The notes below the pieces were generated by a model. That model worked only from the letters and a program-made list of their open reading frames with translations. It did no database searches and had not been told where the DNA came from. From NCBI GenBank assembly GCA_937125475.1, contig CAKZLL010000319.1, positions 1 through 33,447 on the forward strand: a stretch of DNA of 33,447 nucleotides, given 5' to 3'. Made by a program: the position numbers and the translations under genes. The stretch is from an uncultured Saprospiraceae bacterium (GTDB taxonomy: Bacteria; Bacteroidota; Bacteroidia; Chitinophagales; Saprospiraceae). Below, piece by piece: positions 9,273 through 33,447 of this stretch (positions within the stretch are counted from its first letter, which is position 1; the number at the start of each line of letters is the position of its first letter).

Positions 9273-9325
9273 AACTATTTTTGTATTTTTATGACCTTCA
9301 ATTTAATTAATTATATAAGTATTTG

Positions 9326-12049
9326 ATGACCATATATTTTGGATTAGAACTCGATCAGTTAGTGTATCCTGAACACGAAAATGGCGGATATTGGTATTGT
9401 GGCGCAAAGCGAATATTGACTTTTTTAGAAACACATTTAGGATTGGGTGGTTATCCAACTAATAATGAGTTTTTGAGAATTGAGCAATTTCGTCAAGCGA
9501 TTCAGAAACACCAAAGCTTTGATGAAAAGGCTTTTTATCTCGCTTCTTTTGAGGCTGATCCGCTCGCTACTGCAACGGCTTTGCTCGATCGCCGAGATGA
9601 ATTAGTATTGGGAAATTGGAATTTTATTCCTACTCCAAAAACGCCTGTTCGACTACGAACGCTTGCCGAAATCGAAAATATTGCTCAAACTGGTGAGAAT
9701 GGTTTAGGGCTAAGTATGGGCTTTTCGGATAGATGGTTGGCGGTAGAAAAGACATTGCCTACTCGCACTATTCCGCTCGAAAAAGTATGGATTAATGAAC
9801 CGTTTGATTTATTGCCAGATTATATCAAACGATTGATTTCTATTTTAAAAAAGAAGAATATCGCAGTAGAATCTGTTCATCATGATGTAAAAACAGAAGC
9901 GACAGATTTAGGCTTTTTTAAAAATAGCATTACTCAAAAAGCACAAAACGGCAAAGCTAAAGGAGATGGTTCGTTAGTGATCTTGAAATCGAAAAGAGGT
10001 CATGCTTTAGCGACATTTTTAGCCAAATTGTTCCAAAAAAATAGAAAATATCAGCCGCTTTGTCTTATTCCAGAAAAAAACCGCGCTTTAGATAATGCCT
10101 TGATTCAAGAAGGTTTGCCGAGTTTAGGCATTTTATCAGAATCATTGGCGCGTCCTTCTTTGCAAATTCTAAAACTTGCACCCGCCTTTTTGTGGAAACC
10201 GATTGATCCGTATAAAGTCATGGAGTTTGTTTCATTGACAGTCAAACCGCTTCGAGATGATTTGGCAAATATCATTGCAAATGAAATCGCTAGAACGCCT
10301 GGAATTAGAGGTGATCGTTGGCGTTTTATGATCAAAAATTACTTTGATGAACTAAAAGTACGCGCACTTTCTGATGAAGAAAAAAATATTGATGTGCTAG
10401 AAGTCCAGAATCAATATAGTTTTTGGTTTGGGCGAGATCGCTATGAAGTGACGGAAACTGTGCCGAAAGATATTGCCGCAGAGATTTTTGATTATGTTGG
10501 AAAATGGGCCAAAAAAGTCTATGAAAATGACAAGTCAAACCCTGCTTCTATGTTGGTTTTGAGTGAGCAGGCTTACCGAATTGTTGAATTAATTGAAACG
10601 TTGCCTATTCAAGAAGAGGCATTGAGTTATTTGCAATTGGAGCGAATTGTTCGGACGATTTACGAGCCGTCGCCAGTGAGTTTTAAAGAACGTGAAGTGG
10701 GCGATTTGAATTATATCCATCACAATAGTGCGATTATCGAGCCTGTTGATCAATTGCTTTGGTGGAATTTTTTGGATAATGAACCGCCTTATTTTTTTTC
10801 AAAATGGTATTTGCAAGAATATAATTATCTCGAAACGCTTCAAGTTTATTTGGATCGCCCGAAAATGCAAAATGATCGGTTACTTTGGCAGCGCATTCGT
10901 CCTGTGACTTATACGAACAAGCAGATTGTGTTCTGTTTGCCAGCAATGGTAGATGGAAGCACGGTTCATCCTCATCCTTTAATGGGAAATTTGGCGGCTT
11001 GCTTTGAAAACTTGGATGATTTGATTATTGATGTAGATGATTCGAATAATTTTGAATTGTTAGAAAAGTTAGGTTTAGCATTACCAAAAAAAGAGGCATT
11101 AAGTAATAAAACTTTTAATGAACCAAAGCCATTTTTGCGGATTTCACAAACGGAAATGCTCGAATCACGAGAAAGTGAATCATATACGAGTCTTGACGCA
11201 TTGATGTATTATCCTTACAAATGGGTTTTTCAATATAAGTTGAAACTCCGCAAATCGTCAATTTTGAGCATCGTTAAAGATTATACTTTAATGGGAAATC
11301 TGGCGCATAAGGTGTTTGAAAATATGTTTAGAAAAGAGGATGTGCTGGATTGGGACACGCCTAAAATTATGAATTGGATAGGAGCTGAGGCAAATTATGT
11401 GATGGAACGGGAAGGAGCCGTTTTGTTGATGTATGGTCGAGAGCCAGAACGCGCTTCTTTTGTCAATAAATTGAAATTCGCAGCTTCAACATTGATTAAA
11501 ATGATCAAAAACAACGGCTGGAAAATTCAAGCGACCGAAAAGAAGTTGGAAGATACTTTTATGGAAATTGAAATTAAAGGCGTTGCGGATTTGGTTTTGG
11601 AGAATGAAAAAGGAGAATTAGCAATTATAGATTTGAAATGGAGCGGAGCAGCAAAACGCTTTCAACTCATTCGTAATCAAGAGGATTTGCAATTAGTGAT
11701 GTATTCTAAATTGTTGACCAAAAATGATGATTGGGCGCATACGGCGTTTTTCATTATGGAACAAGGCAAGATGATTTCACGCAATAACTTAGCTTTTAAA
11801 GAAGCGATGGCAGTTGATCCAAATGCCGACCATGAAGCTATTAACTTATCGATTTGGGAAAAAATAAAAGCGACTTATCAATGGCGAATGAAGCAGCTTG
11901 AAGCAGGAAGTATTGAAATTCGTACCGAACAAACTTTACTTGATATTGAAGAACAAATGACTGCCGAAGAACTTATGGCGTTATTGGAAATGAAAAGTAA
12001 AAACGCCCGTTATGATGATTTCAAGGCTTTAATTGGTGTTTTGGAATAA
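9326..12049 (+). CDS. PD-(D/E)XK nuclease family protein, AddB-like
   Basis: A 907-residue protein whose C-terminal part has the RecB/AddB-type nuclease core. A histidine lies in MGNLAHKVFENMF (near residue 660), an aspartate in GVADLVL (about 756), D-x-K in IIDLKW (about 769-771), and QLVMYSKL supplies the Q-x3-Y motif. The N-terminal two thirds have no Walker A, as expected for the inactivated-helicase half of AddB-like proteins. Such proteins usually work with an AddA/UvrD-type helicase in double-strand break repair; none is in the window. ATG at 9326 is preferred to the TTG just before it. A TATTTTTG box at 9276-9283 could be its own -7 element, but no -33 partner is evident. Confidence is high for the nuclease domain and moderate for the AddB role. 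Confidence 0.85.
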   Translation: MTIYFGLELDQLVYPEHENGGYWYCGAKRILTFLETHLGLGGYPTNNEFLRIEQFRQAIQKHQSFDEKAFYLASFEADPLATATALLDRRDELVLGNWNFIPTPKTPVRLRTLAEIENIAQTGENGLGLSMGFSDRWLAVEKTLPTRTIPLEKVWINEPFDLLPDYIKRLISILKKKNIAVESVHHDVKTEATDLGFFKNSITQKAQNGKAKGDGSLVILKSKRGHALATFLAKLFQKNRKYQPLCLIPEKNRALDNALIQEGLPSLGILSESLARPSLQILKLAPAFLWKPIDPYKVMEFVSLTVKPLRDDLANIIANEIARTPGIRGDRWRFMIKNYFDELKVRALSDEEKNIDVLEVQNQYSFWFGRDRYEVTETVPKDIAAEIFDYVGKWAKKVYENDKSNPASMLVLSEQAYRIVELIETLPIQEEALSYLQLERIVRTIYEPSPVSFKEREVGDLNYIHHNSAIIEPVDQLLWWNFLDNEPPYFFSKWYLQEYNYLETLQVYLDRPKMQNDRLLWQRIRPVTYTNKQIVFCLPAMVDGSTVHPHPLMGNLAACFENLDDLIIDVDDSNNFELLEKLGLALPKKEALSNKTFNEPKPFLRISQTEMLESRESESYTSLDALMYYPYKWVFQYKLKLRKSSILSIVKDYTLMGNLAHKVFENMFRKEDVLDWDTPKIMNWIGAEANYVMEREGAVLLMYGREPERASFVNKLKFAASTLIKMIKNNGWKIQATEKKLEDTFMEIEIKGVADLVLENEKGELAIIDLKWSGAAKRFQLIRNQEDLQLVMYSKLLTKNDDWAHTAFFIMEQGKMISRNNLAFKEAMAVDPNADHEAINLSIWEKIKATYQWRMKQLEAGSIEIRTEQTLLDIEEQMTAEELMALLEMKSKNARYDDFKALIGVLE

Positions 12050-12133: not shown

Positions 12134-12213
12134 TAACAATCTAACAATCTAACAATCTAACAATCTAACAATCTAACAATCTAACAATCTAACAATCTAA
12201 CAATCTAACAATA
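12134..12213. repeat. tandem array of nine TAACAATC units plus one degenerate unit
   Basis: Nine perfect 8-bp copies run from 12134 to 12205 and a tenth, TAACAATA, ends at 12213. Such perfect short arrays change length by slipped-strand replication. Eight is not a multiple of three, but the array is outside any ORF, so any effect would be on spacing or RNA structure. It is too short in unit length and lacks spacers, so it is not CRISPR. Confidence 0.9.
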
Positions 12214-18461: not shown

Positions 18462-19484
18462 TTACTCTGAAAATTCAGAATTATTAATAAAGTCCCAATC
18501 GGTTAAGCTTTTCAAAAAAGCAATTAAATCTGATTTTTCTTGTTCTGAAAGTTGAAGTGATTGTATTAATGAACTTTGATTCGGATGACCGAAGCCGCCT
18601 TGATTGTATCTTTCTATAACCTCCTCTAAAGAATTATAAGTTCCATTGTGCATATAAGGCGCGGTAAGTTCAATATTACGAAGTGTAGGAACTTTAAATT
18701 TGCCAATATCTGAGCTATCTGCTGTAATTCTCGCCAAACCATGATCATCAAAAGAAGCAAAAGCACCATTATTAACAATAGCATATTCCGAAAAATCAAA
18801 ACCACCATGACAACTGCCACAGTTTAACCGAGTGCTAAAAAATAAAGACATCCCACGTTGTTCGGAAATAGTCAATGCTTCATTTTCTCCCCAATATTTG
18901 AAGCGATCATATTTTGAATTTGCGCTAATCAATGTTCTTTCAAATGCACTTAATGCTCGAACAATTACAAAGTTATCCAAAGATTTGCCAAAAGCTTGAT
19001 GAGATAAGGTTTGAATGTTTTCGTCATCCTTTAACCGTTCGATTATACCAATTGTTGAAAAATCCATTTCTCGATGATCTTCAATTGGTCCAAAAACTTG
19101 AGATTCTAATGAGTTATTCCCGCCTTCTCTAAAGAAATAGGGATGATAAGCGACATTAATTAAAGTAGGAGAATTTCGGAAACCAATTCGATTATCGATA
19201 CCGATAGAAATAGGATGATGATCCGCAAATCCTTCTGATTGTAAATGACAAGAACCACAAGAAATCGTTTCATTGCGCGAAAGTCGCTTATCATAAAACA
19301 ATTGTTTACCCAATGCGACACGCTCTAAAGTCACTGCCCGATCACTAGGAATAGGCGGGAAGGGAACACCCGCAGGTAAGTTGAATTCATAAGGTGTTTC
19401 GGTCATAGTAGGTGGAGCTTCATCAAAATCACAAGATATGATGAAGCTACACCAACATAAAATAAATAGTGTTTTTGATTTCAA
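18462..19484 (-). CDS. di-haem cytochrome c peroxidase / MauG-MbnH-like lipoprotein
   Basis: A 340-residue protein with two haem c sites, CGSCH at 76-80 and CGSCH at 222-226, and the conserved APYMHNG near residues 275-281. This is the bacterial di-haem peroxidase/MauG fold. The start codon is TTG (19484): no ATG or GTG lies in frame back to a stop near 19506. From it a lipoprotein signal reads through FIISC, with C18 as the lipidated residue. The protein is therefore periplasmic and membrane anchored. The gene begins 16 bp after the MbnP-like stop, so the two are surely co-transcribed. In methanotrophs the partner enzyme MbnH oxidises a tryptophan of MbnP; the pairing suggests the same here. 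A plain H2O2 peroxidase role remains possible. Confidence 0.92.
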   Translation of the reverse strand: MKSKTLFILCWCSFIISCDFDEAPPTMTETPYEFNLPAGVPFPPIPSDRAVTLERVALGKQLFYDKRLSRNETISCGSCHLQSEGFADHHPISIGIDNRIGFRNSPTLINVAYHPYFFREGGNNSLESQVFGPIEDHREMDFSTIGIIERLKDDENIQTLSHQAFGKSLDNFVIVRALSAFERTLISANSKYDRFKYWGENEALTISEQRGMSLFFSTRLNCGSCHGGFDFSEYAIVNNGAFASFDDHGLARITADSSDIGKFKVPTLRNIELTAPYMHNGTYNSLEEVIERYNQGGFGHPNQSSLIQSLQLSEQEKSDLIAFLKSLTDWDFINNSEFSE

Positions 19485-19500
19485 ATCACTTATTATTTGA

Positions 19501-20217
19501 TTACATTACAGAAAAAGCGTCTTTCAAATTATCCATCATTGTGGCACTCATACCATGAACTGTAGTATTATTTTTTAAGTCAATATCCTTGAATAAATTC
19601 GCGTAATCGACCTTAATCATAATTTCTTCTGTAGACTTTGTTAACTCTTGATGAGTCATTAAAGTAAGGTTACGAAGCATTTCATTTCTACCAATATGAT
19701 AAGCAAAAGGCGTTTCTGGTGTTCCGTCTCCATCCACATCAACTAGCCCTTCGATTTTTGCAAAAATATACCCTGAATTCCAGTTCCAGTGCATTTTAGG
19801 ATCTTGAATAGCTAAAGGATCTTCTGCATCACGAGCAGTAAAATTAGCCTCAGTTTGTGCATTATTAGTAGCATCAACACCGACACTAAAGGTTAATTCA
19901 TGTGCATGTAGTAACGAAGTTTCGCCCCATTCATACGTTCCATGACCTGCTTTGACTAGGAAATAATTGTCAATACTTTCCGATCCACCATCATCATCTG
20001 AAAGAGAAAAACCATGCGTGTAAAATTGCGCTAAAGTAAATTGAACAGGAAGAGTATCATTAATCGTATAAGTTTGATTGAAATTGAAATCTTCTGCTCC
20101 TACTTTTGGATGAAAGTGAAGGTTTAATGTTGTTTTTTCATCAGAATCGCATGAGCTTAATAAAAGTGCGCATAAAGCTAATGAGATTGATAAAAATTTT
20201 ATAGTTATTTTTTTCAT
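19501..20217 (-). CDS. MbnP-family lipoprotein, probable copper-binding protein
   Basis: A 238-residue lipoprotein (MKKITIKFLSISLALCALLLSSC, lipid-attached C23). The opening strand LNLHFHPKVG and the later KMHWNWNSGYIFAKIEG (141-157, with W144 and W146) match the MbnP family as I know it. In characterised MbnP a tryptophan is converted to kynurenine by the di-haem enzyme MbnH, producing a copper site. His-rich stretches here (H34, H36, H104, H106 and H143) are possible metal ligands. DVDGDGTPETPF (about 160-171) looks like a calcium-binding loop. The gene lies directly before the MauG-like gene in the same message. No mbnA/B/C genes are present, so this is not a methanobactin biosynthesis operon. 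Confidence 0.88.
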   Translation of the reverse strand: MKKITIKFLSISLALCALLLSSCDSDEKTTLNLHFHPKVGAEDFNFNQTYTINDTLPVQFTLAQFYTHGFSLSDDDGGSESIDNYFLVKAGHGTYEWGETSLLHAHELTFSVGVDATNNAQTEANFTARDAEDPLAIQDPKMHWNWNSGYIFAKIEGLVDVDGDGTPETPFAYHIGRNEMLRNLTLMTHQELTKSTEEIMIKVDYANLFKDIDLKNNTTVHGMSATMMDNLKDAFSVM

Positions 20218-23708: not shown

Positions 23709-24833
23709 ATGAGAAGAAAAATACTGTTGCTATTAAGTTTACTACTATTATTATCATCGCAACTCATTACTGCACAAGATGCTGCTTTCTCGCAGTTCTA
23801 TGCAAATAAGTTGTATCTGAATCCTGCTTTTGCGGGACATCAGCAAGGTCTGACCATGACGAGTGCGTATCGTACTCAATGGAGTTATATTCCTGGAGGA
23901 TTTACGACTTACAGTTTTGGAGCAGATATTCAAGAGCCTTATCTCAACTCTACTTTTGGAGTATTGGCTTATAAAGATCAGGAAGGGGAAGGCTTTCTTT
24001 CCACAACTTCCATTGGTTTTATCTATGGCTATATTGTCCGATTAGGGAAGAAGAGTAATATTCATATTGCGCTTCAAACCAATTTTTTTCAAAAAGCCAT
24101 TGATTGGTCAAAATTAACTTTTACAGATCAATTGCATCCTGTTTTAGGCGTTGTCAGACCGACTAACGCTATTCCTATTCTAGAAACAAAGAGTTATGCT
24201 TCTTTTGATTTTGGAATGGTTTGGCGTGCACAGGGCGAGTTGTTTGGTATGAAAACTCATAATAATATGGGGTTTTCTATACATCACCTCAATCAACCTA
24301 ATGAGTCTATTCAAGAGCTAGGGAGCATTAATTCTAATTTACCAAGAAGATATACATTTCATGCAGGAACTATGTTTGAAGTGGTTTCTTTCGATTACGC
24401 TCAAAAGCGGGTCATTTACCTTTCTCCGAATTTCAAATTTGATTATCAAAAAAATATTAAGATTGTGACTTATGGTATTTATGCGATAAGTAATCCGCTT
24501 TATGCTGGTGTTTTTTACCAAAATAAAAACGGAATTATTGATTTTCAAAATACCAACTCCTTAATTTTAACAGGTGGTTTTGAAGGTCGTATGAATGATG
24601 ATTTGAAATTTACAGTCGGGTATAGTTATGATTTGAACACCACAGGTTTAGGCCCTCGAACAAATGGAGTGCATGAAGTAACCGTTATGTTCAATTTTGA
24701 AAAAGCATCGATTTTTGGATTGCCAAGTAATGGGAAATCTGGAAAACGATGGAGAGGTCGAAAAAACCGTAGAGGTCGAAATGCCATGAGTTGTTACAAA
24801 TTTGAAGGCGCGAGTTCCATCTCTATTTATTAA
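23709..24833 (+). CDS. PorP/SprF-family type IX secretion system membrane protein
   Basis: A 374-residue outer-membrane protein. It has a signal peptide (MRRKILLLLSLLLLLSSQLITAQ, cleavage near 22-23) followed directly by DAAFSQFYANKLYLNPAFAG (23-42), the defining start of PorP/SprF proteins (D-P-x-F-S-Q-F/Y...NPAF/YAG). The rest is a predicted beta-barrel of alternating strands. The C-terminal tail (about 342-374) is rich in Arg, Lys and Gly (GKRWRGRKNRRGRN) before SCYKF; this strong basic stretch is unusual to my eye. In Flavobacterium, SprF is needed to bring SprB to the surface, and T9SS type B substrates generally sit beside such a gene. Here the next gene, 171 bp on, is a giant repeat protein, its likely client. 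Confidence 0.95.
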   Translation: MRRKILLLLSLLLLLSSQLITAQDAAFSQFYANKLYLNPAFAGHQQGLTMTSAYRTQWSYIPGGFTTYSFGADIQEPYLNSTFGVLAYKDQEGEGFLSTTSIGFIYGYIVRLGKKSNIHIALQTNFFQKAIDWSKLTFTDQLHPVLGVVRPTNAIPILETKSYASFDFGMVWRAQGELFGMKTHNNMGFSIHHLNQPNESIQELGSINSNLPRRYTFHAGTMFEVVSFDYAQKRVIYLSPNFKFDYQKNIKIVTYGIYAISNPLYAGVFYQNKNGIIDFQNTNSLILTGGFEGRMNDDLKFTVGYSYDLNTTGLGPRTNGVHEVTVMFNFEKASIFGLPSNGKSGKRWRGRKNRRGRNAMSCYKFEGASSISIY

Positions 24834-25004: not shown

Positions 25005-28000
25005 ATGAGAATATATACCAACATATTTACACTATTTATAGGTCTATTAGGTCTATTTTCCTCTAATCATGTGCTGGCTCAGTGTCCTGTACCAGCATCA
25101 GCCGTGGCGTTTACCGCTTCAAATAATGTTGCGAGTTGTGCGCAAACGGCTATTACTTTTACTGTAACTAATCCTGATCCTGATTATACATATACTTGGG
25201 ATTTTGGAGATCCAGCTTCAGGTACGAGTAATACTGCAACAGGTACAACTGTTAGTCATTCCTTTTCTGCGACTACCGTAGGTGCTGCTCATAATGTAAA
25301 AGTTACTGCAACTGAAAGCACTGAGAATAATGTAGCTTGGACAACTGTTCATTCAAGGTTAACAGCTTTTGGTAATAGTGTTGCAAGAAACTTTGGAACA
25401 GGTTCTGGTTGGAATTCGGGCGCAGAATCTGCGGCATTAATTAATGATAACTCTTATGTAGAATTTATTGCAGGATTAACAAACAATCGTTTGGCTTGTG
25501 GATTAGGTAATAATACGAATAATAATGGTTTAGGTGGTATTGATTTTGCCATGGAAATGCGGAATGGTTCTATTCGAATTTATGAAAGTGGTCAATATAG
25601 AACTAATATTGGTAGTTATAATTATGGAGATACATTAAGGGTGGCTGCCGAAAATGGAACGGTTAACTATTATCAAAATGGAACATTAAAATATACAAGT
25701 AATGTTTCGCCTTCCTTTCCTATGTTTGCAGATGCTTCTATTAGAAATGCTGGTGATACATTGCACAATGCAGTCATTGGAGCATATTGTACTGCCTCGG
25801 ATTCTACGACAATTACAACTTTAGGAACACCTACAATAGACATACCTCAAGGCTGGGATAGATGTATTGCAGTAGATAATCAAGGCTTTACTAATGCTGT
25901 CTTTTTGAATAGTGGTATGATTCCAGGCATAACTTATAATTGGGATTTTGGTGATGGAGGTTCTACTTCTACGGTATATCCAGATAGTGTAACTGTTCAT
26001 CAATATGTAGGACATGGTATTTATCCTGTAACCGTAACAGCTAGTAACGGTACTTGTACCAGCACATATACTAATAATGTTTTATATTTAACTAGACCAT
26101 TAGCTGATATGGTTGTAGTAGGTACAGCCGATATTTGTGAAGGAGAAACTATTTATATTGCTAATAACACAGATACTTCGAATGTAGATTTCTTTGTAAT
26201 GGATTGGGGCGATGGTACACGAGATACTACCCTAACTACTGATACATTAACTCATGTTTATAATTTTTCTGATGCTTATGCTTGTACTATCACACAAGGA
26301 GGGCAGCCATACGATATAGTTTTATATGCAGTTAATTCATGTTTTGAACATACAAATGAATCTCCTATTACAGTAATTGCTTCTCCAAGATCTAACTTAG
26401 CGAATACACAAATTGTCTGTGAAGATATAAATACTACATCTGGAGTATCATTTTCTAATGCTATTTGTCCTCAACCGACTAGTATTTTTACAGATCAAAA
26501 TACATATGCATGGAACTTTGGAGATCCAAATTCTGGAGCAAGTAACACGGTTAATGGAACAGGATCTTCAACACATACTTTTTCCGACCCAGGGAATTAT
26601 ACGGTTGTATTAACCATTACAGATCCAACTTGTGGAAATTTTTATGATACAACCGAAGTAAGAATTATAGATAATCCCGAAGCTGGTTTTTCCTTCACGG
26701 TCTCTCCTGTATTAGGAAATACCGCGAATGGAGATGGTTGTGCGCCAATTGATGTGGCATTTGCTAATAATGTAAATGGAGATAGTGTTTCTTATCAATG
26801 GACGATTGCCACTGATGTAATTGGCGGCATGAATTTTATTAATAATACTTCGGATACGTCTACTAATCCTCAAATGGAATTTACAGAACCAGGGGATTAT
26901 TTTGTTACGCTTACCGCAACAAATCCTTGTACTTCTACGGTATTTGTAGATACAATTCGTGTTTTGGACGGTCCAAAAGTAACATTAAATCCAGCAAATC
27001 CAACTTGTGATAATTTCCTTTATACGCCAAGTGTTGTGTATGATGAAGGAGGAGGAGGGATAGATACTTATAGTTGGCAATTCCCAGGAGCAGTACCTGC
27101 GACATCAAGTGATGCTAATCCAACTAATATTTCATATACCTCATCAGGAACTTATCAGGTTATTGTACAAATCACCAATGAATGTACTATAACCTCAGAT
27201 ACTATATCTTTTTATGTTCCGCTCACTCCAACGCCAATAACGCTCTCCGCAAATGGCAATCAAAGTACTTGTATTGATGCCGCCTCCTTTAATCTGACAG
27301 CAGATTCAACGGGTGGTACTTGGTCTGGACAAGGTATTACAAATGCCTCACTTGGGACATTCAGTCCAGCAGGTGCAGGAGTTGGAACACATACCATTAC
27401 TTATACTTATAATCCGCGTGTTTGTCCAGCAACTGCCACAATCCAAATCACTGTCAACGATTTACCTACGGTTAACGCTAGTAATAATATGGCAATGTGT
27501 TTGAATGATGGCATTGTGACTTTGACAGGTGCAACGCCAGCAGGCGGAACATGGTCAGGAACGGGCGTTGATCCAGGAGCTGGTACTTTTGATCCGTCAG
27601 TAAGTGGTGCAGGTGTTTTTCCTGTAACTTACACTTATACAGATAATAATGGCTGTACTAATACGGATAGTCGAAATATTCGAGTTTTTGCATTACCAAA
27701 TTTAAATCTAGGAAATGATTTAACGGAATGTAATGGCCCAGATGATATTGCTTTAAGTGCAACACCAGCGGGCGGTACTTGGTCAGGAATTGGCGTGAAT
27801 AGTGGAAATAGCACATTCAACGCTGTTACCGCAGGCGGTGTGGGTACATATGTTGCAACTTATACTTATACCGATGGTAATGGTTGTACGAATACGGCTT
27901 CTATCAATATTGATGTGATTAATGGAACAGCGGTTACCGCAGGAAATGACACAACGCTTTGTGTGTCTGGAGATCCTGTAGAATTAACGGCTGGCTCGCC

Positions 28001-31000
28001 ATCGGGTGGTGTTTGGTCTGGAACAGGGGTATTTAGCAATGCAGGAAGCTATTATTTCTATCCATCAGTAGCTGGAACAGGTTCACATAATATTACTTAT
28101 AGTCGTGGTTCTGGTTCTTGTCAAGAAACTGATGTTTTCGTAGCAACGGTTATCCCAATCCCAGTAGTAGATGCAGGAGCTAATTTATCTTTATGTATTA
28201 GCGAACCAGCTTTCAATTTAACAGGAAATTCGCCTGTTGGCGGAACATGGTCAGGTACTGGTATTACTGATGCCAATGCAGGAACATTCGACCCAGCGAT
28301 AGGAACAGGTACTTATGTAATAACTTATTCTTATACTGATCCAATTACAGATTGTTCAAATACAGATACAAGACAAATTGTTATTCATGCACTCCCAACA
28401 GTCACAGCGACAGGCGCACAAGAAGAATGTAACAATCCTTTAGATTTACAATTGACAGGTTTTGCACCTGGCGGTGGTACTTGGACAGGAGCTGGTATTG
28501 CAAATGCTTCTTTAGGAACATTCAATTCTGTTGCAGCAGGTGGTTTATCTTGGGATGGTTCAGATACAACTTATACTTTAACTTATACTTATACAGATGG
28601 CAATGGTTGTATTGATAGTGCAAAAACCATTGTCACATTGATTTTTGGTGATACCGTCGAAGCTGGCCCAGATGATACTTTATGTATCAATGCAGGTGCT
28701 TATGCTTTATCTGGATTTTCGCCAGCAGGTGGTACTTGGACAGGAAACGGCGTTGCGGGTTCAACTTTCTTCCCAGCCGCCGCAGGTTTGGGCGATCATA
28801 CTTTGACTTATACTTATGGTACAGGGTCTTGTTTGAAAGAGGATACCAAAATAGTTACTGTAATTAGTATTCCTACGGTCAATGCAGGAAATGATACTTT
28901 AGTTTGTGAAGGTACAAATGCATTTACTTTAGTTCCTTATTCTCCAACAGGAGGAACATGGTCAGGAACAGGTGTAGTTGGAAATACTTTTGATCCAACA
29001 ATAGCAGGAACTGGTGTTCATGTTTTAACTTATGATTATACCAATACAACAACAGGTTGTACCAATACAGATAATATTAGTGTAACGGTTTCTGGATTAC
29101 CAGTCGTAACAACTAATGGCGCAGAAATGTATTGTATCACAACCGATAATATTACATTAACTAATTATAGTCCTGCTGGCGGGGTTTGGTCTGGAGCTGG
29201 TATTGTCAATGCAAATGGCGGTATTTTCAACGGAACAACTGCAGGCGGTTTAGGATATAATGATGCAGATACAACTTATCCAGTCATTTATACTTATACA
29301 GATGGCAATGGTTGTGCAAGTAGTGATGTTTTGACGATTTCCGTCGTGAGCGGTTTAACAGTTGAAGCTGGCGATATTGATACATTTTGTTTATATGATC
29401 CAGCATTTATTTTGCCAGGCTTTAGTCCTGCAAATGGTACTTGGACAGGAACAGGAATTGTAGATGCAAGCACAGGACAATTTAATCCAGCAACAGCAGG
29501 AGCAGGCACACATACTTTAATTTATAAAGTAGGAAATAGCACTTGTCAAAGATCGGATACAACATATATAACAGTTGGGGAAACGCCTAGCACACAAGCA
29601 GGATTAGACACTTTAGTCTGTGAAGGAACAACAACATTCACACTTTATGGGTTTTCGCCAGTAGGCGGAACTTGGACGGGGACAGGAATTACTGGAAACA
29701 CTTTTGATCCAGTAGCGGCAGGAACAGGCACTCACATTATTACTTACACTTACATCGATCCTTTTACTAAATGTCAAGCAGAAGATACTAAAACAGTAAC
29801 AGTTTCTGCATTACCGAATGTAATAACTACTGGACCAGTACAGGAATGTACTTCTCCAGATAATATTGCATTGACAGGCTTTTCGCCATTAGGTGGTTCT
29901 TGGTCTGGAGATGGAATTGTTAGTGCGGGTGGTGTTTTTAATGGAAATACGGCTGGCGGTGTTGGTGTGTATGATTTAGTCTATACTTATACGGATGGAA
30001 ATGGTTGTACAAATACGGACACGATGCAATTATCAGTTGTGGATAGTGTCAGCGTTGAGGCTGGACCTTTAGATACGGTTTGTGCTTATGATGCGCCATT
30101 CACTTTGCAAGGGTTTACTCCTGCGGCTGGTGTTTGGTCGGGTTCTGGTATTTCTAATGCAAATACAGGGCAGTTTGATCCAGGTTCAGTTGCTCCAGGT
30201 ACTTATCCTGTTGTTTATACAATTGGTTCTGGAACTTGTCAACGTTCAGATACAACTTCCGTTTTGATCGTTCCAACTCCAACTGTAAATGCAGGGCCGA
30301 ATATTGTAATTTGTGCGGATAGTTCAGCCTTTATTTTAACGGACTTTTCGCCAGTAGGCGGAACATGGTCAGGTACAGGAATTACAGATAGCATCAATGG
30401 TGTTTTTGATCCAAAAGTGGCAGGTGATGGACTATTTACATTGACTTATACTTACATAGAAAGTATTAATGGGTGTGAAAATTCAGCTACTAGAACGGTT
30501 AGAATTAATCCTTTACCATCGGTTACGATGCCAGATACACTTGAATATTGTAATAGTGGAGGTGATATTACCATTGCAGGATACACGCCTACGGGGGGTG
30601 TTTGGAGTGGAAATGGTATTACTGATGCTAATGCAGGTATTTTTAACACAGTAACAGCAGGCGGTATTGGATATAATAATGTAGATACAACTTATCCGTT
30701 AGTTTATATTTATACGGATGTTAATGGTTGTATTGATACAGCAGATTTAAATCTTACTTTAGTATTTGGTGATACAATCAATGCAGGGCCAGACTTGGCA
30801 ATGTGTGTAACGGATGATCCTGATACATTAATGAATTATATTCCGACAAGTGGCGGTTCTTGGTCAGGTCCAGGTATTGTCAATGCGTCAGTAGGTATTT
30901 TTGATCCATCAATTGGAGCAGGAACTTACACGATTACTTATACGCATGGTACTTCTACTTGTTTAAAACAGGATACAAGAGATATTTTAGTTGGAGATCT

Positions 31001-33447
31001 TCCTGCTGTTGAAGCAGGCTCGAACCTAGCTTACTGTATTAGTGAGCCACAAGATACCTTAACAGGAAATAGTCCTTCAAATGGTATTTGGAGTGGAACA
31101 GGTATTACAGATAGTTTGAATGGTCATTTCGACCCAGCAACTGCAACCGCAGGAACACATACAATTACATATACATTTACAAATTCAATAACAGGTTGTG
31201 TTAACTCTGATTCTCGATCTTTAGAAGTTAATTCATTACCAGTTATTAATGTGGGTGATACAGTAATTTATTGTAATAATCCAGATAATATAACGCTTTC
31301 AGGCTATTCGCCAGTAGGTGGAATTTGGTCTGGTACAGGCGTTATTGATCCGAATAATGGTATTTTCAATTCAGAAACAGCAGGTGGAGAAGGTTTTTAT
31401 AATCTAGTTTATACCGTTACAAGTAATAAAGGTTGTGTGGATACGGACACATTAGTTGTCAATGTTATTTACGGAGATACAGTTGATGCAGGTGCGCCAA
31501 TTGGTGTTTGTATTGATGATGGTATTGTGACTTTAAGCGGTTATACACCAACAACTGGCGGTACTTGGTCAGGACCTGGTATTGTGGATGGAAGTGCAGG
31601 AACTTTTGACCCAACAAATGTAGCAGCTACGAATACATCTTATACCTTAATATATACTTATGGTGTAGGAACTTGTCGCAAAACAGATGCAACAACGATT
31701 TATGTCGGTTCAATTCCATTTGTAGAAGCAGGTGCAAATGATACGGTTTGTAGCGCGGATGCAGCATTTGCATTGTCTGGATATGTTCCAGCTTCGGGCG
31801 GAACTTGGTCAGGCGATGGCATTACAGATGCATCAAACGGCATTTTCACGCCAAGTGTAGCAGGTGCAGGCACACATACTTTAACTTATACTTATCTCAA
31901 CGACTTTACAGGTTGTGAGAATTTCGATACTAAATTAATTACAGTTCGTCCAGCCCCAATTGTAGGCGCAGGAAACGACAGAACTGAATGTAATAGCGTC
32001 ACCGATTTAACCTTAACTGGATATAGTCCTTTGGGTGGTGTTTGGTCTGGGATTGGTATTATTGATGCCAATAATGGTATTTTCAATAGTATTATCGCGG
32101 GTGGTGTTGGTACTTATCAATTGACTTATACTTATACTGATAATATTGGTTGTTCTAATTTGGACACCGTGAATATGATTATCGAATATGGGGATACAGT
32201 CAAAGCAGGAGATGATTTTAATCTTTGTGAAGATGCAGGAAATCGCGTATTAGTTGGCTCTCCAGCAGGAGGTACATGGTCAGGAACAGGTATTATCAAT
32301 CCATCAGGAATTTTTGATCCTACCGTTCCAGCGCCTGGAGCATTCTACACATTGACTTATACTTATGGTGTTGGAACTTGTCAAAAAACGGATGATATCC
32401 AAGTATTTGTTAGTCCAGCTATCACTGTAAATGCAGGCCCAGACGAAACGGTTTGTTTATCTAATCCAGCTTATAATCTTACTGGAAATAGCCCAGCTTC
32501 GGGTGGTGTTTGGTCAGGAGATGGTATTACAGATGCTAATGCAGGAACATTTGACCCAGCAACAGCAGGAATAGGAAATCACGTTATTACTTTTAATTAT
32601 GTCAATGCCGTAACAGGTTGTGAAGGAACAGACACTCGTACAATTAGCGTCGTTTCTATTCCAATTGCAGAAGCAGGCGCACCAGTTACTTATTGTAATA
32701 ATACTGGAAATGTAACATTAACAGGCTATTCGCCATTAGGTGGTATTTGGTCTGGTACTGGTATTATTGATGGTATTAATGGTATTTTCAATAGTGTTTC
32801 GGCAGGTGGTTTAGGCTACAATAATGCAGATACAACTTATAAATTAGTTTATACTTATTCAAGTGGTTCTAATTGTAGTGCTACGGATACATTAGAAATT
32901 ACACTTATTTTTGGGGAAACCCTCGTAGCAGGAAGCAACGATACTTTATGTATTGATGATGCTCAATTGACTTTAACAGGTTATTCGCCAGCAGGCGGAG
33001 GCTGGTCTGGTACTGGTATTATTGATGGTATTAATGGTATTTTTGATCCATCAGTTGCAGGTGCAGGCACACATACTTTAACTTATACACATGGTTCTGG
33101 TACTTGCGAAAAAACAATTACTAAAACGGTTTATGTTGATCCATTACCTGTTATTAATCCAGGTGCAAACGAAACGTATTGTCTGGCGAATACAATAATA
33201 ACTTTATCTGGTTATAGCCCACAAGGCGGAGTTTGGTCTGGTACTGGCATTGTTGATGGAAATGCAGGAACATTCGATCTTTCAGTCGGAGTTGGAACGC
33301 ATACTTTGACTTATACTTATGCTAATTCAATTACAGGTTGTGAAAATTCAGCAACTAAAACGATCACAATTGATCCATTACCAGTAGTTGATGCAGGTGT
33401 TAATCAGAATGTTTGTATTGATGATCCACAATTGACGCTTGCTGGTT
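25005..33447 (+). CDS. giant surface protein with PKD-like, lectin-like and at least 26 repeat domains (3' end outside window)
   Basis: ATG 25005 opens a frame with no stop to the right edge: 2814 codons plus one base, so the protein is longer still. The signal peptide is MRIYTNIFTLFIGLLGLFSS...VLA, cut before Q26. Six PKD/Ig-like domains are marked by their core Trp: W65 (WDFGD), W313 (WDFGDGG), W401 (WGDGT), W503 (WNFGD), W599 and W691. Between the first two, residues about 112-262 form a different domain (IRIYESGQ, YGDTLRVAAENGTVNYYQNG) that resembles lectin-like beta-sandwich modules of secreted bacterial proteins. From residue 740 on is a uniform repeat array, described separately. The preceding PorP/SprF gene predicts a T9SS type B C-terminal domain. 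The role is probably adhesin, filament or gliding-type surface protein, like SprB by organisation only. Confidence 0.93.
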   Translation, partial: MRIYTNIFTLFIGLLGLFSSNHVLAQCPVPASAVAFTASNNVASCAQTAITFTVTNPDPDYTYTWDFGDPASGTSNTATGTTVSHSFSATTVGAAHNVKVTATESTENNVAWTTVHSRLTAFGNSVARNFGTGSGWNSGAESAALINDNSYVEFIAGLTNNRLACGLGNNTNNNGLGGIDFAMEMRNGSIRIYESGQYRTNIGSYNYGDTLRVAAENGTVNYYQNGTLKYTSNVSPSFPMFADASIRNAGDTLHNAVIGAYCTASDSTTITTLGTPTIDIPQGWDRCIAVDNQGFTNAVFLNSGMIPGITYNWDFGDGGSTSTVYPDSVTVHQYVGHGIYPVTVTASNGTCTSTYTNNVLYLTRPLADMVVVGTADICEGETIYIANNTDTSNVDFFVMDWGDGTRDTTLTTDTLTHVYNFSDAYACTITQGGQPYDIVLYAVNSCFEHTNESPITVIASPRSNLANTQIVCEDINTTSGVSFSNAICPQPTSIFTDQNTYAWNFGDPNSGASNTVNGTGSSTHTFSDPGNYTVVLTITDPTCGNFYDTTEVRIIDNPEAGFSFTVSPVLGNTANGDGCAPIDVAFANNVNGDSVSYQWTIATDVIGGMNFINNTSDTSTNPQMEFTEPGDYFVTLTATNPCTSTVFVDTIRVLDGPKVTLNPANPTCDNFLYTPSVVYDEGGGGIDTYSWQFPGAVPATSSDANPTNISYTSSGTYQVIVQITNECTITSDTISFYVPLTPTPITLSANGNQSTCIDAASFNLTADSTGGTWSGQGITNASLGTFSPAGAGVGTHTITYTYNPRVCPATATIQITVNDLPTVNASNNMAMCLNDGIVTLTGATPAGGTWSGTGVDPGAGTFDPSVSGAGVFPVTYTYTDNNGCTNTDSRNIRVFALPNLNLGNDLTECNGPDDIALSATPAGGTWSGIGVNSGNSTFNAVTAGGVGTYVATYTYTDGNGCTNTASINIDVINGTAVTAGNDTTLCVSGDPVELTAGSPSGGVWSGTGVFSNAGSYYFYPSVAGTGSHNITYSRGSGSCQETDVFVATVIPIPVVDAGANLSLCISEPAFNLTGNSPVGGTWSGTGITDANAGTFDPAIGTGTYVITYSYTDPITDCSNTDTRQIVIHALPTVTATGAQEECNNPLDLQLTGFAPGGGTWTGAGIANASLGTFNSVAAGGLSWDGSDTTYTLTYTYTDGNGCIDSAKTIVTLIFGDTVEAGPDDTLCINAGAYALSGFSPAGGTWTGNGVAGSTFFPAAAGLGDHTLTYTYGTGSCLKEDTKIVTVISIPTVNAGNDTLVCEGTNAFTLVPYSPTGGTWSGTGVVGNTFDPTIAGTGVHVLTYDYTNTTTGCTNTDNISVTVSGLPVVTTNGAEMYCITTDNITLTNYSPAGGVWSGAGIVNANGGIFNGTTAGGLGYNDADTTYPVIYTYTDGNGCASSDVLTISVVSGLTVEAGDIDTFCLYDPAFILPGFSPANGTWTGTGIVDASTGQFNPATAGAGTHTLIYKVGNSTCQRSDTTYITVGETPSTQAGLDTLVCEGTTTFTLYGFSPVGGTWTGTGITGNTFDPVAAGTGTHIITYTYIDPFTKCQAEDTKTVTVSALPNVITTGPVQECTSPDNIALTGFSPLGGSWSGDGIVSAGGVFNGNTAGGVGVYDLVYTYTDGNGCTNTDTMQLSVVDSVSVEAGPLDTVCAYDAPFTLQGFTPAAGVWSGSGISNANTGQFDPGSVAPGTYPVVYTIGSGTCQRSDTTSVLIVPTPTVNAGPNIVICADSSAFILTDFSPVGGTWSGTGITDSINGVFDPKVAGDGLFTLTYTYIESINGCENSATRTVRINPLPSVTMPDTLEYCNSGGDITIAGYTPTGGVWSGNGITDANAGIFNTVTAGGIGYNNVDTTYPLVYIYTDVNGCIDTADLNLTLVFGDTINAGPDLAMCVTDDPDTLMNYIPTSGGSWSGPGIVNASVGIFDPSIGAGTYTITYTHGTSTCLKQDTRDILVGDLPAVEAGSNLAYCISEPQDTLTGNSPSNGIWSGTGITDSLNGHFDPATATAGTHTITYTFTNSITGCVNSDSRSLEVNSLPVINVGDTVIYCNNPDNITLSGYSPVGGIWSGTGVIDPNNGIFNSETAGGEGFYNLVYTVTSNKGCVDTDTLVVNVIYGDTVDAGAPIGVCIDDGIVTLSGYTPTTGGTWSGPGIVDGSAGTFDPTNVAATNTSYTLIYTYGVGTCRKTDATTIYVGSIPFVEAGANDTVCSADAAFALSGYVPASGGTWSGDGITDASNGIFTPSVAGAGTHTLTYTYLNDFTGCENFDTKLITVRPAPIVGAGNDRTECNSVTDLTLTGYSPLGGVWSGIGIIDANNGIFNSIIAGGVGTYQLTYTYTDNIGCSNLDTVNMIIEYGDTVKAGDDFNLCEDAGNRVLVGSPAGGTWSGTGIINPSGIFDPTVPAPGAFYTLTYTYGVGTCQKTDDIQVFVSPAITVNAGPDETVCLSNPAYNLTGNSPASGGVWSGDGITDANAGTFDPATAGIGNHVITFNYVNAVTGCEGTDTRTISVVSIPIAEAGAPVTYCNNTGNVTLTGYSPLGGIWSGTGIIDGINGIFNSVSAGGLGYNNADTTYKLVYTYSSGSNCSATDTLEITLIFGETLVAGSNDTLCIDDAQLTLTGYSPAGGGWSGTGIIDGINGIFDPSVAGAGTHTLTYTHGSGTCEKTITKTVYVDPLPVINPGANETYCLANTIITLSGYSPQGGVWSGTGIVDGNAGTFDLSVGVGTHTLTYTYANSITGCENSATKTITIDPLPVVDAGVNQNVCIDDPQLTLAG
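27222..33447 (+). repeat. coding array of 26 complete units (plus one partial) arranged in an A-B-C super-repeat
   Basis: Unit starts: 27222, 27456, 27690, 27921, 28155, 28389, 28644, 28866, 29091, 29349, 29580, 29808, 30042, 30273, 30510, 30765, 30996, 31233, 31470, 31710, 31950, 32187, 32415, 32655, 32910, 33141 and 33375 (cut). Lengths are 222-258 bp. All 26 complete units have W[S/T]GxG[I/V] and two cysteines, one near unit residue 14 and one near residue 55-65. Three subtypes alternate. A ends in G-[S/T]-C (for example VGTCRK) and usually begins with GDTVEAG or a variant. B ends like NSITGCEN and begins with PVNAG-type text. C has [Y/E]CNxxDN at its first cysteine and TYTDGNGC at its second. 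Unit 3 is C, then A-B-C repeats from unit 4 to unit 26. The A-to-A distances are 723, 705, 693, 723, 705, 717 and 723 bp. Confidence 0.93.

Follow-up and report, generated by a model that had tools for sequence, protein, structure and literature searches.

Genetic environment and architecture of the locus

The window, that is, the whole stretch of 33,447 nucleotides analyzed here, corresponds to contig C319 in an assembly of 559 contigs (genome G000) from an uncultured Saprospiraceae bacterium. Its last quarter is occupied by the beginning of a giant open reading frame, which leads from a signal-peptide-like start through PKD domains into an array of 26 full repeat units and one partial unit, and which is preceded by a gene of the PorP/SprF family. 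The features relevant for this study are the following:

23709..24833, + strand: gene for a PorP/SprF-family outer-membrane partner, directly upstream of the fibre gene (PF11751, E 2.3e-42; TIGR03519, 197.6 bits vs cut-off 90.55)
25005..33446, + strand: 5' portion of the gene for the giant surface protein (2814 aa), running off the contig end; remainder on contig C16 (4005 aa)
25005..25082, + strand: signal-peptide-like N-terminus MRIYTNIFTLFIGLLGLFSSNHVLAQ, recognized by sequence inspection, without a predictor
25083..27233, + strand: N-terminal head region with PKD domains (PF00801 and PF18911, 5-6 stretches)
27234..27692, + strand: array units 1 and 2, divergent, in A and B positions; unit 1 matches first units and unit 2 second units in other genera
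27693..27923, + strand: unit 3, phase C (unit alignment, phase profiles)
27924..28646, + strand: A-B-C block, units 4-6 (unit alignment, phase profiles)
28647..29351, + strand: A-B-C block, units 7-9 (unit alignment, phase profiles)
29352..30044, + strand: A-B-C block, units 10-12 (unit alignment, phase profiles)
30045..30767, + strand: A-B-C block, units 13-15 (unit alignment, phase profiles)
30768..31472, + strand: A-B-C block, units 16-18 (unit alignment, phase profiles)
31473..32189, + strand: A-B-C block, units 19-21 (AlphaFold2 model with three beta-sandwich domains, pLDDT 93.4, pTM 0.73)
32190..32912, + strand: A-B-C block, units 22-24 (phase profiles; part of a six-domain model of units 19-24)
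32913..33374, + strand: units 25 (A) and 26 (B) (unit alignment, phase profiles)
33375..33446, + strand: incomplete unit 27, cut by the contig end; resembles B in a position due to C

A unit is about 78 residues long and contains two cysteines as well as the motif GGxWSGxG. No Pfam or NCBIfam family matched it above cut-off, the best being PF16403 with 18.3 bits against a cut-off of 27. Residues 223-743 of the head align with the corresponding protein of G033, a member of another genus of the Saprospiraceae, at 35% identity. Close to the N-terminus, a stretch of about 155 residues (25317-25790; GSGWNSGAESA...YYQNGTLKYTS...) has the look of a lectin-type jelly-roll insert; it has no match in Pfam, and the main alignment to the G033 protein starts only at residue 223. 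Further upstream, the 8-bp sequence TAACAATC is perfectly repeated in tandem (9.9 copies, 12134-12212) right behind a PDDEXK gene (9323-12049). Adjoining genes at 18462-20217 code for a di-heme enzyme of the MbnH/MauG type and a copper-binding protein of the MbnP type, with scores below the curated cut-offs in both cases.

The units follow a strict three-phase order

An earlier note on this DNA had claimed that units 3 to 26 obey one rule, C followed by repeated A-B-C, and that the true period is therefore about 240 residues (693-723 bp). We aligned the units and assigned phase labels from position alone. The coordinates given for the ordered region turned out to be right, with unit 3 starting at 27693 and unit 26 ending at 33374, and leave-one-out profiles returned the expected phase for 24 of these 24 units. 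The rule, which had been limited to units 3-26, holds there but reaches further, as units 1 and 2 stand in A and B positions and the order carries on through the 40 units of contig C16, which is described below. When window and C16 were taken together, the phase was correct for 63 out of 63 units (24 and 39, respectively), and the same count was reached with gap-free core columns only. For all but one of the 63 (62/63), the nearest unit was of the same phase.

Mean protein identity at lags of one to six units amounted to 0.394, 0.377, 0.502, 0.402, 0.382, and 0.473 for units 3-26 of the window and to 0.368, 0.370, 0.564, 0.373, 0.369, and 0.542 for units Q1-Q39 of C16. Permutation of the unit order (10,000 shuffles) yielded z values of 7.4 for the window and 10.1 for C16, and in the window even the top shuffle attained only about half of the observed difference. 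At the DNA level, identity at lag 3 was 0.592 in the window and 0.634 in C16 as compared to about 0.50 at lags 1 and 2 (0.506 in the window), and the best self-offset was 705 bp in the window and 693 bp in C16. The order claimed in the earlier note is thereby confirmed, and it is stronger than had been claimed. Tandem Repeats Finder did not detect any repeat within the array because the units are too diverged and the longest period it considers is 500.

The earlier note had furthermore expected A, B, and C to form three clades. In the unrooted unit tree, phases A (97/95) and C (100/99) each occupy one side of a branch, but the B units are the remainder and do not form a clade of their own. The tree requires two changes of phase label, which is the minimum, whereas shuffled labels require 30. 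Thus, units do not group by neighbor, nor is identity equal at offsets of one, two, and three units.

The partial unit 27, which follows directly on the range considered in the earlier note, is the one unit of the window that does not fit the order. Its profile scores are -45.5 for A, -36.8 for B, and -51.9 for C, the phase that is due there, and at the DNA level it is closest to B units, both of C16 (50/70) and of a second genome of the same genus, G001 (49/70). It is either a misjoin at the contig end or the sole true break of phase. As a separate observation, an insert of 6-7 residues (YNNADTT-like) occurs in a subset of the units of G000 and G001, exclusively in phase C, e.g., in window units 6, 9, 15, and 24.

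The gene continues on a second contig

Contig C16 of the same assembly opens in the middle of a reading frame of 4005 residues that contains 40 more units, which brings the stalk to more than 60, followed by about eight PKD domains and a tail similar to the type B signal of the type IX secretion system (T9SS), with scores below the curated cut-offs. In G001, window units 1-22 and C16 units Q07-Q13 both have their orthologues in a single reading frame on contig C714, and since orthologues of both contigs are joined there, C319 and C16 represent one gene. Contig C711 of G001 covers Q15-Q40 plus the end of a unit matching Q14. If C714 and C711 meet inside unit 39, as their sequences suggest, the array in G001 sums to 65 units. 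The arrays of G000 and G001 differ only in the middle.

In C16, neighboring blocks are nearly identical at an offset of 693 bp, the DNA identity being 95.4% for Q02/Q05, 87.8% for Q03/Q06, and 83.3% for Q04/Q07, and the region of these duplicated blocks is present in single copy in G001. These pairs are direct evidence of the duplication of three-unit blocks, and they may also be the reason why the assembly broke at this point. When the similarity matrices between blocks were compared among A, B, and C units by Mantel tests, they agreed only in C16 (r 0.33-0.58), whereas agreement was weak or absent elsewhere. The older history of the array has therefore not been cleanly block-wise.

Predicted fold and position of phase-specific residues

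AlphaFold2 predicted six beta-sandwich domains for units 19-24 (pLDDT 93.5, pTM 0.51). Each unit is thus confidently predicted as one Ig-like domain, while the placement of the domains relative to each other is not confident. The two cysteines of a unit are likely to form a Cys-Cys bond. In combination with the fixed order, one predicted Ig-like domain per unit gives a sense in which the three-domain structural repeat envisaged in the earlier note holds. If an Ig-like domain is taken to be about 4 nm long, 5 to about 68 of them would make a stalk of roughly 20 to 270 nm.

The alignment columns that discriminate the phases lie in the linker (columns 1-2), in the loop after the first cysteine (10-17), at column 51, and in the last hairpin (58-61 and 64). 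According to the topology of the predicted fold, most of them would be located at the N-terminal pole and face the preceding domain. The earlier note had suggested that A, B, and C perhaps have different faces. The phase-specific residues, which are concentrated in the linker, the loop behind the first cysteine, and the final hairpin, instead point to junctions between domains, and not side faces, as the typed element.

The partner gene and the proposed secretion and anchoring

A PorP/SprF gene is located upstream of the fibre gene at all nine loci inspected, i.e., in the window and at 8 of the 8 other loci tested. The host genome contains 12 PorP/SprF genes altogether and also encodes the SprA translocon (TIGR04189, 2498 bits, G000:C311). 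The tail of the C16 reading frame approaches the models for type B T9SS signals, with 25.9 bits for CHU_C (cut-off 27, E 1.1e-5) and 21.4 bits for TIGR04131 (cut-off 35).

All nine partner proteins (23709-24833 in the window and those at loci L050, L086, L087, L089, L094, L097, L100, and L053) end in a basic C-terminal tail with a single cysteine close to the end, and a Cys-Xaa-Cys motif is absent from the tail in 9/9. In Flavobacterium johnsoniae, the Cys-Xaa-Cys in the C-terminal tail of SprF is required for gliding and hence marks the gliding-type SprF and not type B anchoring; the partner encoded here has one cysteine instead. The tail cysteine was considered as a sign of gliding, an idea that we dropped because five of the seven further PorP/SprF paralogues checked in this genome have one too. 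SprB and PG1035 are each held by a PorP/SprF partner of their own (PMC9143113).

Distribution in the family and a rule for array length

A profile of the A-B-C block was searched against 298 genomes of the family from 112 genera. At least one block match with E < 1e-30 was obtained in 115 genomes and 59 genera. The array in G033 contains 44 units in strict order. When its units were combined with those of G000 and G001, a tree of 166 units again showed A and C as supported groups with two label changes, and a tree of 320 units from 13 genera needed three. For 304 of these 320 units, the nearest unit from another genus had the same register. Given this agreement of register across genera, the phases must be older than the genera themselves.

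For the analysis of length, a strong unit was defined by a score of at least 40 bits and only complete arrays were counted. This cut-off was fixed post hoc, the first PKD domain behind the array scoring 6-38; the resulting boundary is independently supported by a C-terminal flank that is constant at about 838 aa and by C-terminal alignments that run end to end. Without exception, the 32 gap-free complete three-phase arrays, stemming from 17 genera, comprise 3n+2 units, start with A, and finish with B; none of the complete arrays counted begins with B or C. Twelve arrays consist of 5 units, nine of 8, four of 11, two of 14, four of 17, and one of 44. Since sampling proceeded through a match to the A-B-C profile, arrays of other kinds are under-counted in this set. 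An array in G175 was examined as a counter-example and rejected, as its 33 units are followed by a scaffold gap of 100 N that lies between the beginning of an A unit and the end of a B unit.

Lengths differ even within genera (5, 8, 11, and 17 units in genus g17, 11 and 14 in g110, and 5 and 8 in g100). We count at least seven independent changes of length, including those in g1 and g33, all of them by multiples of three, for which chance would be about one third each. The flanks are nearly constant, mostly with about 600 residues before the array and 838 after it, and the final 850 residues align end to end across genera with 36-44% identity. Moreover, when end units were compared between genera, 67 of 84 had their match at the identical end position, as against about 16 expected. 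With ends conserved and flanks constant, it follows that the arrays grow internally and by whole blocks. Growth by three-domain blocks had been deduced in the earlier note from the window alone; it is now backed by the recent 693-bp duplicates and by lengths that differ across 17 genera by multiples of three only. Stalk lengths that differ in whole three-unit steps suggest that the fibre grows and shrinks by three-domain blocks.

Related arrays that lack the order exist in the same family. They consist entirely or mostly of B-like units; examples are those in G196, where neighbors are 77% identical, and in G079, G073, and G076.

Proposed function and maintenance of the register

In our view, the gene whose 5' part lies in the window probably encodes a giant, type-IX-secreted and SprF-anchored Ig-like stalk, the length of which evolves by in-register steps of three domains. 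The T9SS would export the fibre protein, and the PorP/SprF protein encoded upstream would most likely hold it at the outer membrane via its C-terminal signal. The PKD head would then be positioned at the free end, about eight PKD domains near the membrane, and the Ig-like stalk, with the form (A-B-C)n-A-B throughout, between them. Unequal recombination or slippage between units of the same phase would change the length of the stalk. Because same-phase units pair, a whole A-B-C block of about 710 bp would be gained or lost at once and the register would survive. In-register duplication would also leave neighbors less than 40% identical and thirds alike, and protein identity is indeed 37-40% between neighbors and 50-56% between thirds.

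As to why the register never slips, a preference in pairing, misfolding of like neighbors, and typed junctions would each fit. The register may be kept by DNA pairing that is best between units of the same phase, combined with selection against wrong junctions or against neighbors that are too similar. A further-reaching reading is a register-locked, extensible stalk, (A-B-C)n-A-B with n from 1 to about 22, kept throughout the bacterial family, the length of which could change only by three domains at a time because A-B, B-C, and C-A junctions are typed and arrays out of register are purged; we put this forward tentatively, as something that has somewhat less than an even chance of being correct.

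The order could also be a frozen accident, in which an ancestral A-B-C-A-B array diverged by chance and has since persisted without selection, because only same-phase units are able to pair. A DNA identity of 59-63% at lag 3 versus 50% at lags 1 and 2 is in line with this, and so is the occurrence of the five-unit A-B-C-A-B form in many genera. At 50-63% identity, however, neither pairing is good, and yet not a single out-of-register event is seen in 32 arrays. In addition, single-phase arrays with neighbors that are 76% identical occur in the same family, and cross-unit events are therefore possible in this bacterial group. A purely accidental order is conceivable but doubtful.

Alternatively, each phase might possess an interface of its own towards the preceding domain, so that only C-A, A-B, and B-C contacts would work and the array would form a defined rod with a pitch of three domains. 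The phase-specific columns 1-2, 10-17, 58-61, and 64, which fold topology would place at the N-terminal pole, speak for such typed junctions. The predicted models do not help any further, as pTM drops from 0.73 for three domains to 0.51 for six and they therefore set no rod geometry. We regard a structural repeat of this kind as possible, with considerable reservation.

Long repeat proteins face a conflict, in that like units can recombine and change length, while like neighbors tend to misfold together. Three diverged types could serve to keep neighbors below about 40% identity and thus prevent domain swapping, while similar thirds would still allow changes in length. In three species with long arrays, units one or two positions apart show identities of 0.36-0.42, in agreement with the published rule that neighboring domains are less than 40-50% identical (PMC4647330, PMC8201768). 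On the other hand, related arrays of 82-aa units in the same family have neighbors with 76-77% identity, Periscope proteins violate the rule as well (PMC8201768), and two phases would suffice. Selection against misfolding appears rather unlikely as the explanation.

Homology to the grappling hook GhpA of Aureispira and a role in prey capture are much harder to reconcile with the data. In a fold search of the PDB, the A-B-C model retrieved Ig-like tandems, with GhpA fragments at the top (Z 9.6 and 8.7, 19% identity), and GhpA is likewise a giant T9SS-secreted protein with Ig-like domains. Yet cadherins, ICAM, and titin Ig tandems reach nearly equal scores, the array profile does not match any GhpA sequence at E values up to 10, and only the common PKD region matches (E 3.6e-6). 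Despite its lead in the fold search, we rejected membership in the GhpA group for want of a sequence match in the array and consider it very improbable. The GhpA hook is a heptamer (PMC11205867). The only solved protein that clearly matches the units by sequence is All3314 (Cis19) of Anabaena (7b5h, E 4.7e-13), which is encoded in a cluster for a contractile injection system (PMC8894136) and for which a three-phase array is not known.

Finally, that register and lengths are assembly artefacts has a negligible probability: assemblies do break within near-identical blocks in G000 and G175 and unit 27 is odd, but the same order and ends recur across 17 genera, the units of most arrays differ at about half of their residues and therefore assemble cleanly, and for short arrays this reading is already refuted.

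Returning to the stalk that evolves in register, a strict order of three types with unlike neighbors and similar thirds would resolve the conflict between recombination and misfolding. If the register-locked reading is true, alternation of three types would be a general answer to the misfolding of like neighbors in long, recombining repeat proteins. As the rule holds in 17 genera, it can be tested by counting units in any new long-read genome.

Comparison with known repeat proteins

Several elements of this picture are known from other systems, namely the super-repeats of titin (PMC10665226), a copied three-module block in BAP (PMC4647330), and the variable stalks of Periscope proteins. Titin and BAP come closest to the array studied here. 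The A-band of titin contains 11-domain and shorter super-repeats in which equal positions are more similar than neighbors, a pattern explained by recursive block duplication (PMC10665226). The array studied here shares the feature that units one super-repeat apart are more alike than neighbors, along its whole length. Titin, however, is a muscle protein of eukaryotes that is composed of Ig and FnIII domains and has a register tied to the thick filament, whereas here a single domain family occurs in three phases in a bacterial surface protein whose length varies widely between species.

BAP of Acinetobacter baumannii (modules A-G and Z) is a giant Ig-like surface protein with a three-module EFG block in two or four copies. 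It differs by a mixed module order and another secretion route, and the sections of the article considered do not describe a family-wide three-phase order or length rule (PMC4647330). Periscope proteins (SasG G5/E, Rib, SHIRT, CdrA) share a tandem stalk with a variable number of units that sets the projection of the head (PMC8201768). Their repeats are near-identical and vary between strains, whereas here units share 37-56% identity and their number changes by three-unit blocks. A variable number is seen here too, with 5 to 65 units between conserved ends and flanks, but between species and not strains; DNA identity is mostly 50-63% and reaches 75-95% only in Q01-Q08.

SprB, the gliding adhesin of F. 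johnsoniae, is a giant repetitive type B T9SS substrate encoded beside a PorP/SprF gene (PMC9143113, PMC12635249). The protein described here is likewise giant, repetitive, and encoded beside such a gene, and it is a probable T9SS substrate; we found no description of a three-phase order for SprB. No fixed three-phase order was found in the open-access journal literature searched. Within this literature, two findings are new, namely the fixed order of three phases that a bacterial surface fibre keeps across a family and the 3n+2 rule for the length of this fibre. They describe a widespread and so far uncatalogued family of Saprospiraceae surface fibres, built from an Ig-like unit for which there is no Pfam or NCBIfam model.

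Other repeat patterns in the family

Four further loci with giant or repetitive reading frames were noted. A 3150-aa reading frame at L075 (G051:C67) exhibits a different super-repeat with a period of 252 aa; it contains one recurring A-like unit, which the remaining parts do not resemble. The giant reading frame at L056 (G076:C1), with at least 4508 aa, resembles itself most strongly at 477 and 951 aa, which may reflect a super-repeat of six domains. At L072 (G055:C68:170001-190000), a reading frame of at least 6666 aa is built from repeats that measure about 77 aa and are very similar to each other, without a super-period. The 82-aa units at L103 (G257:C36) show an identity of 0.82 at lag 3 versus 0.76 at lags 1 and 2; this three-phase pattern in another family is weak and perhaps young.
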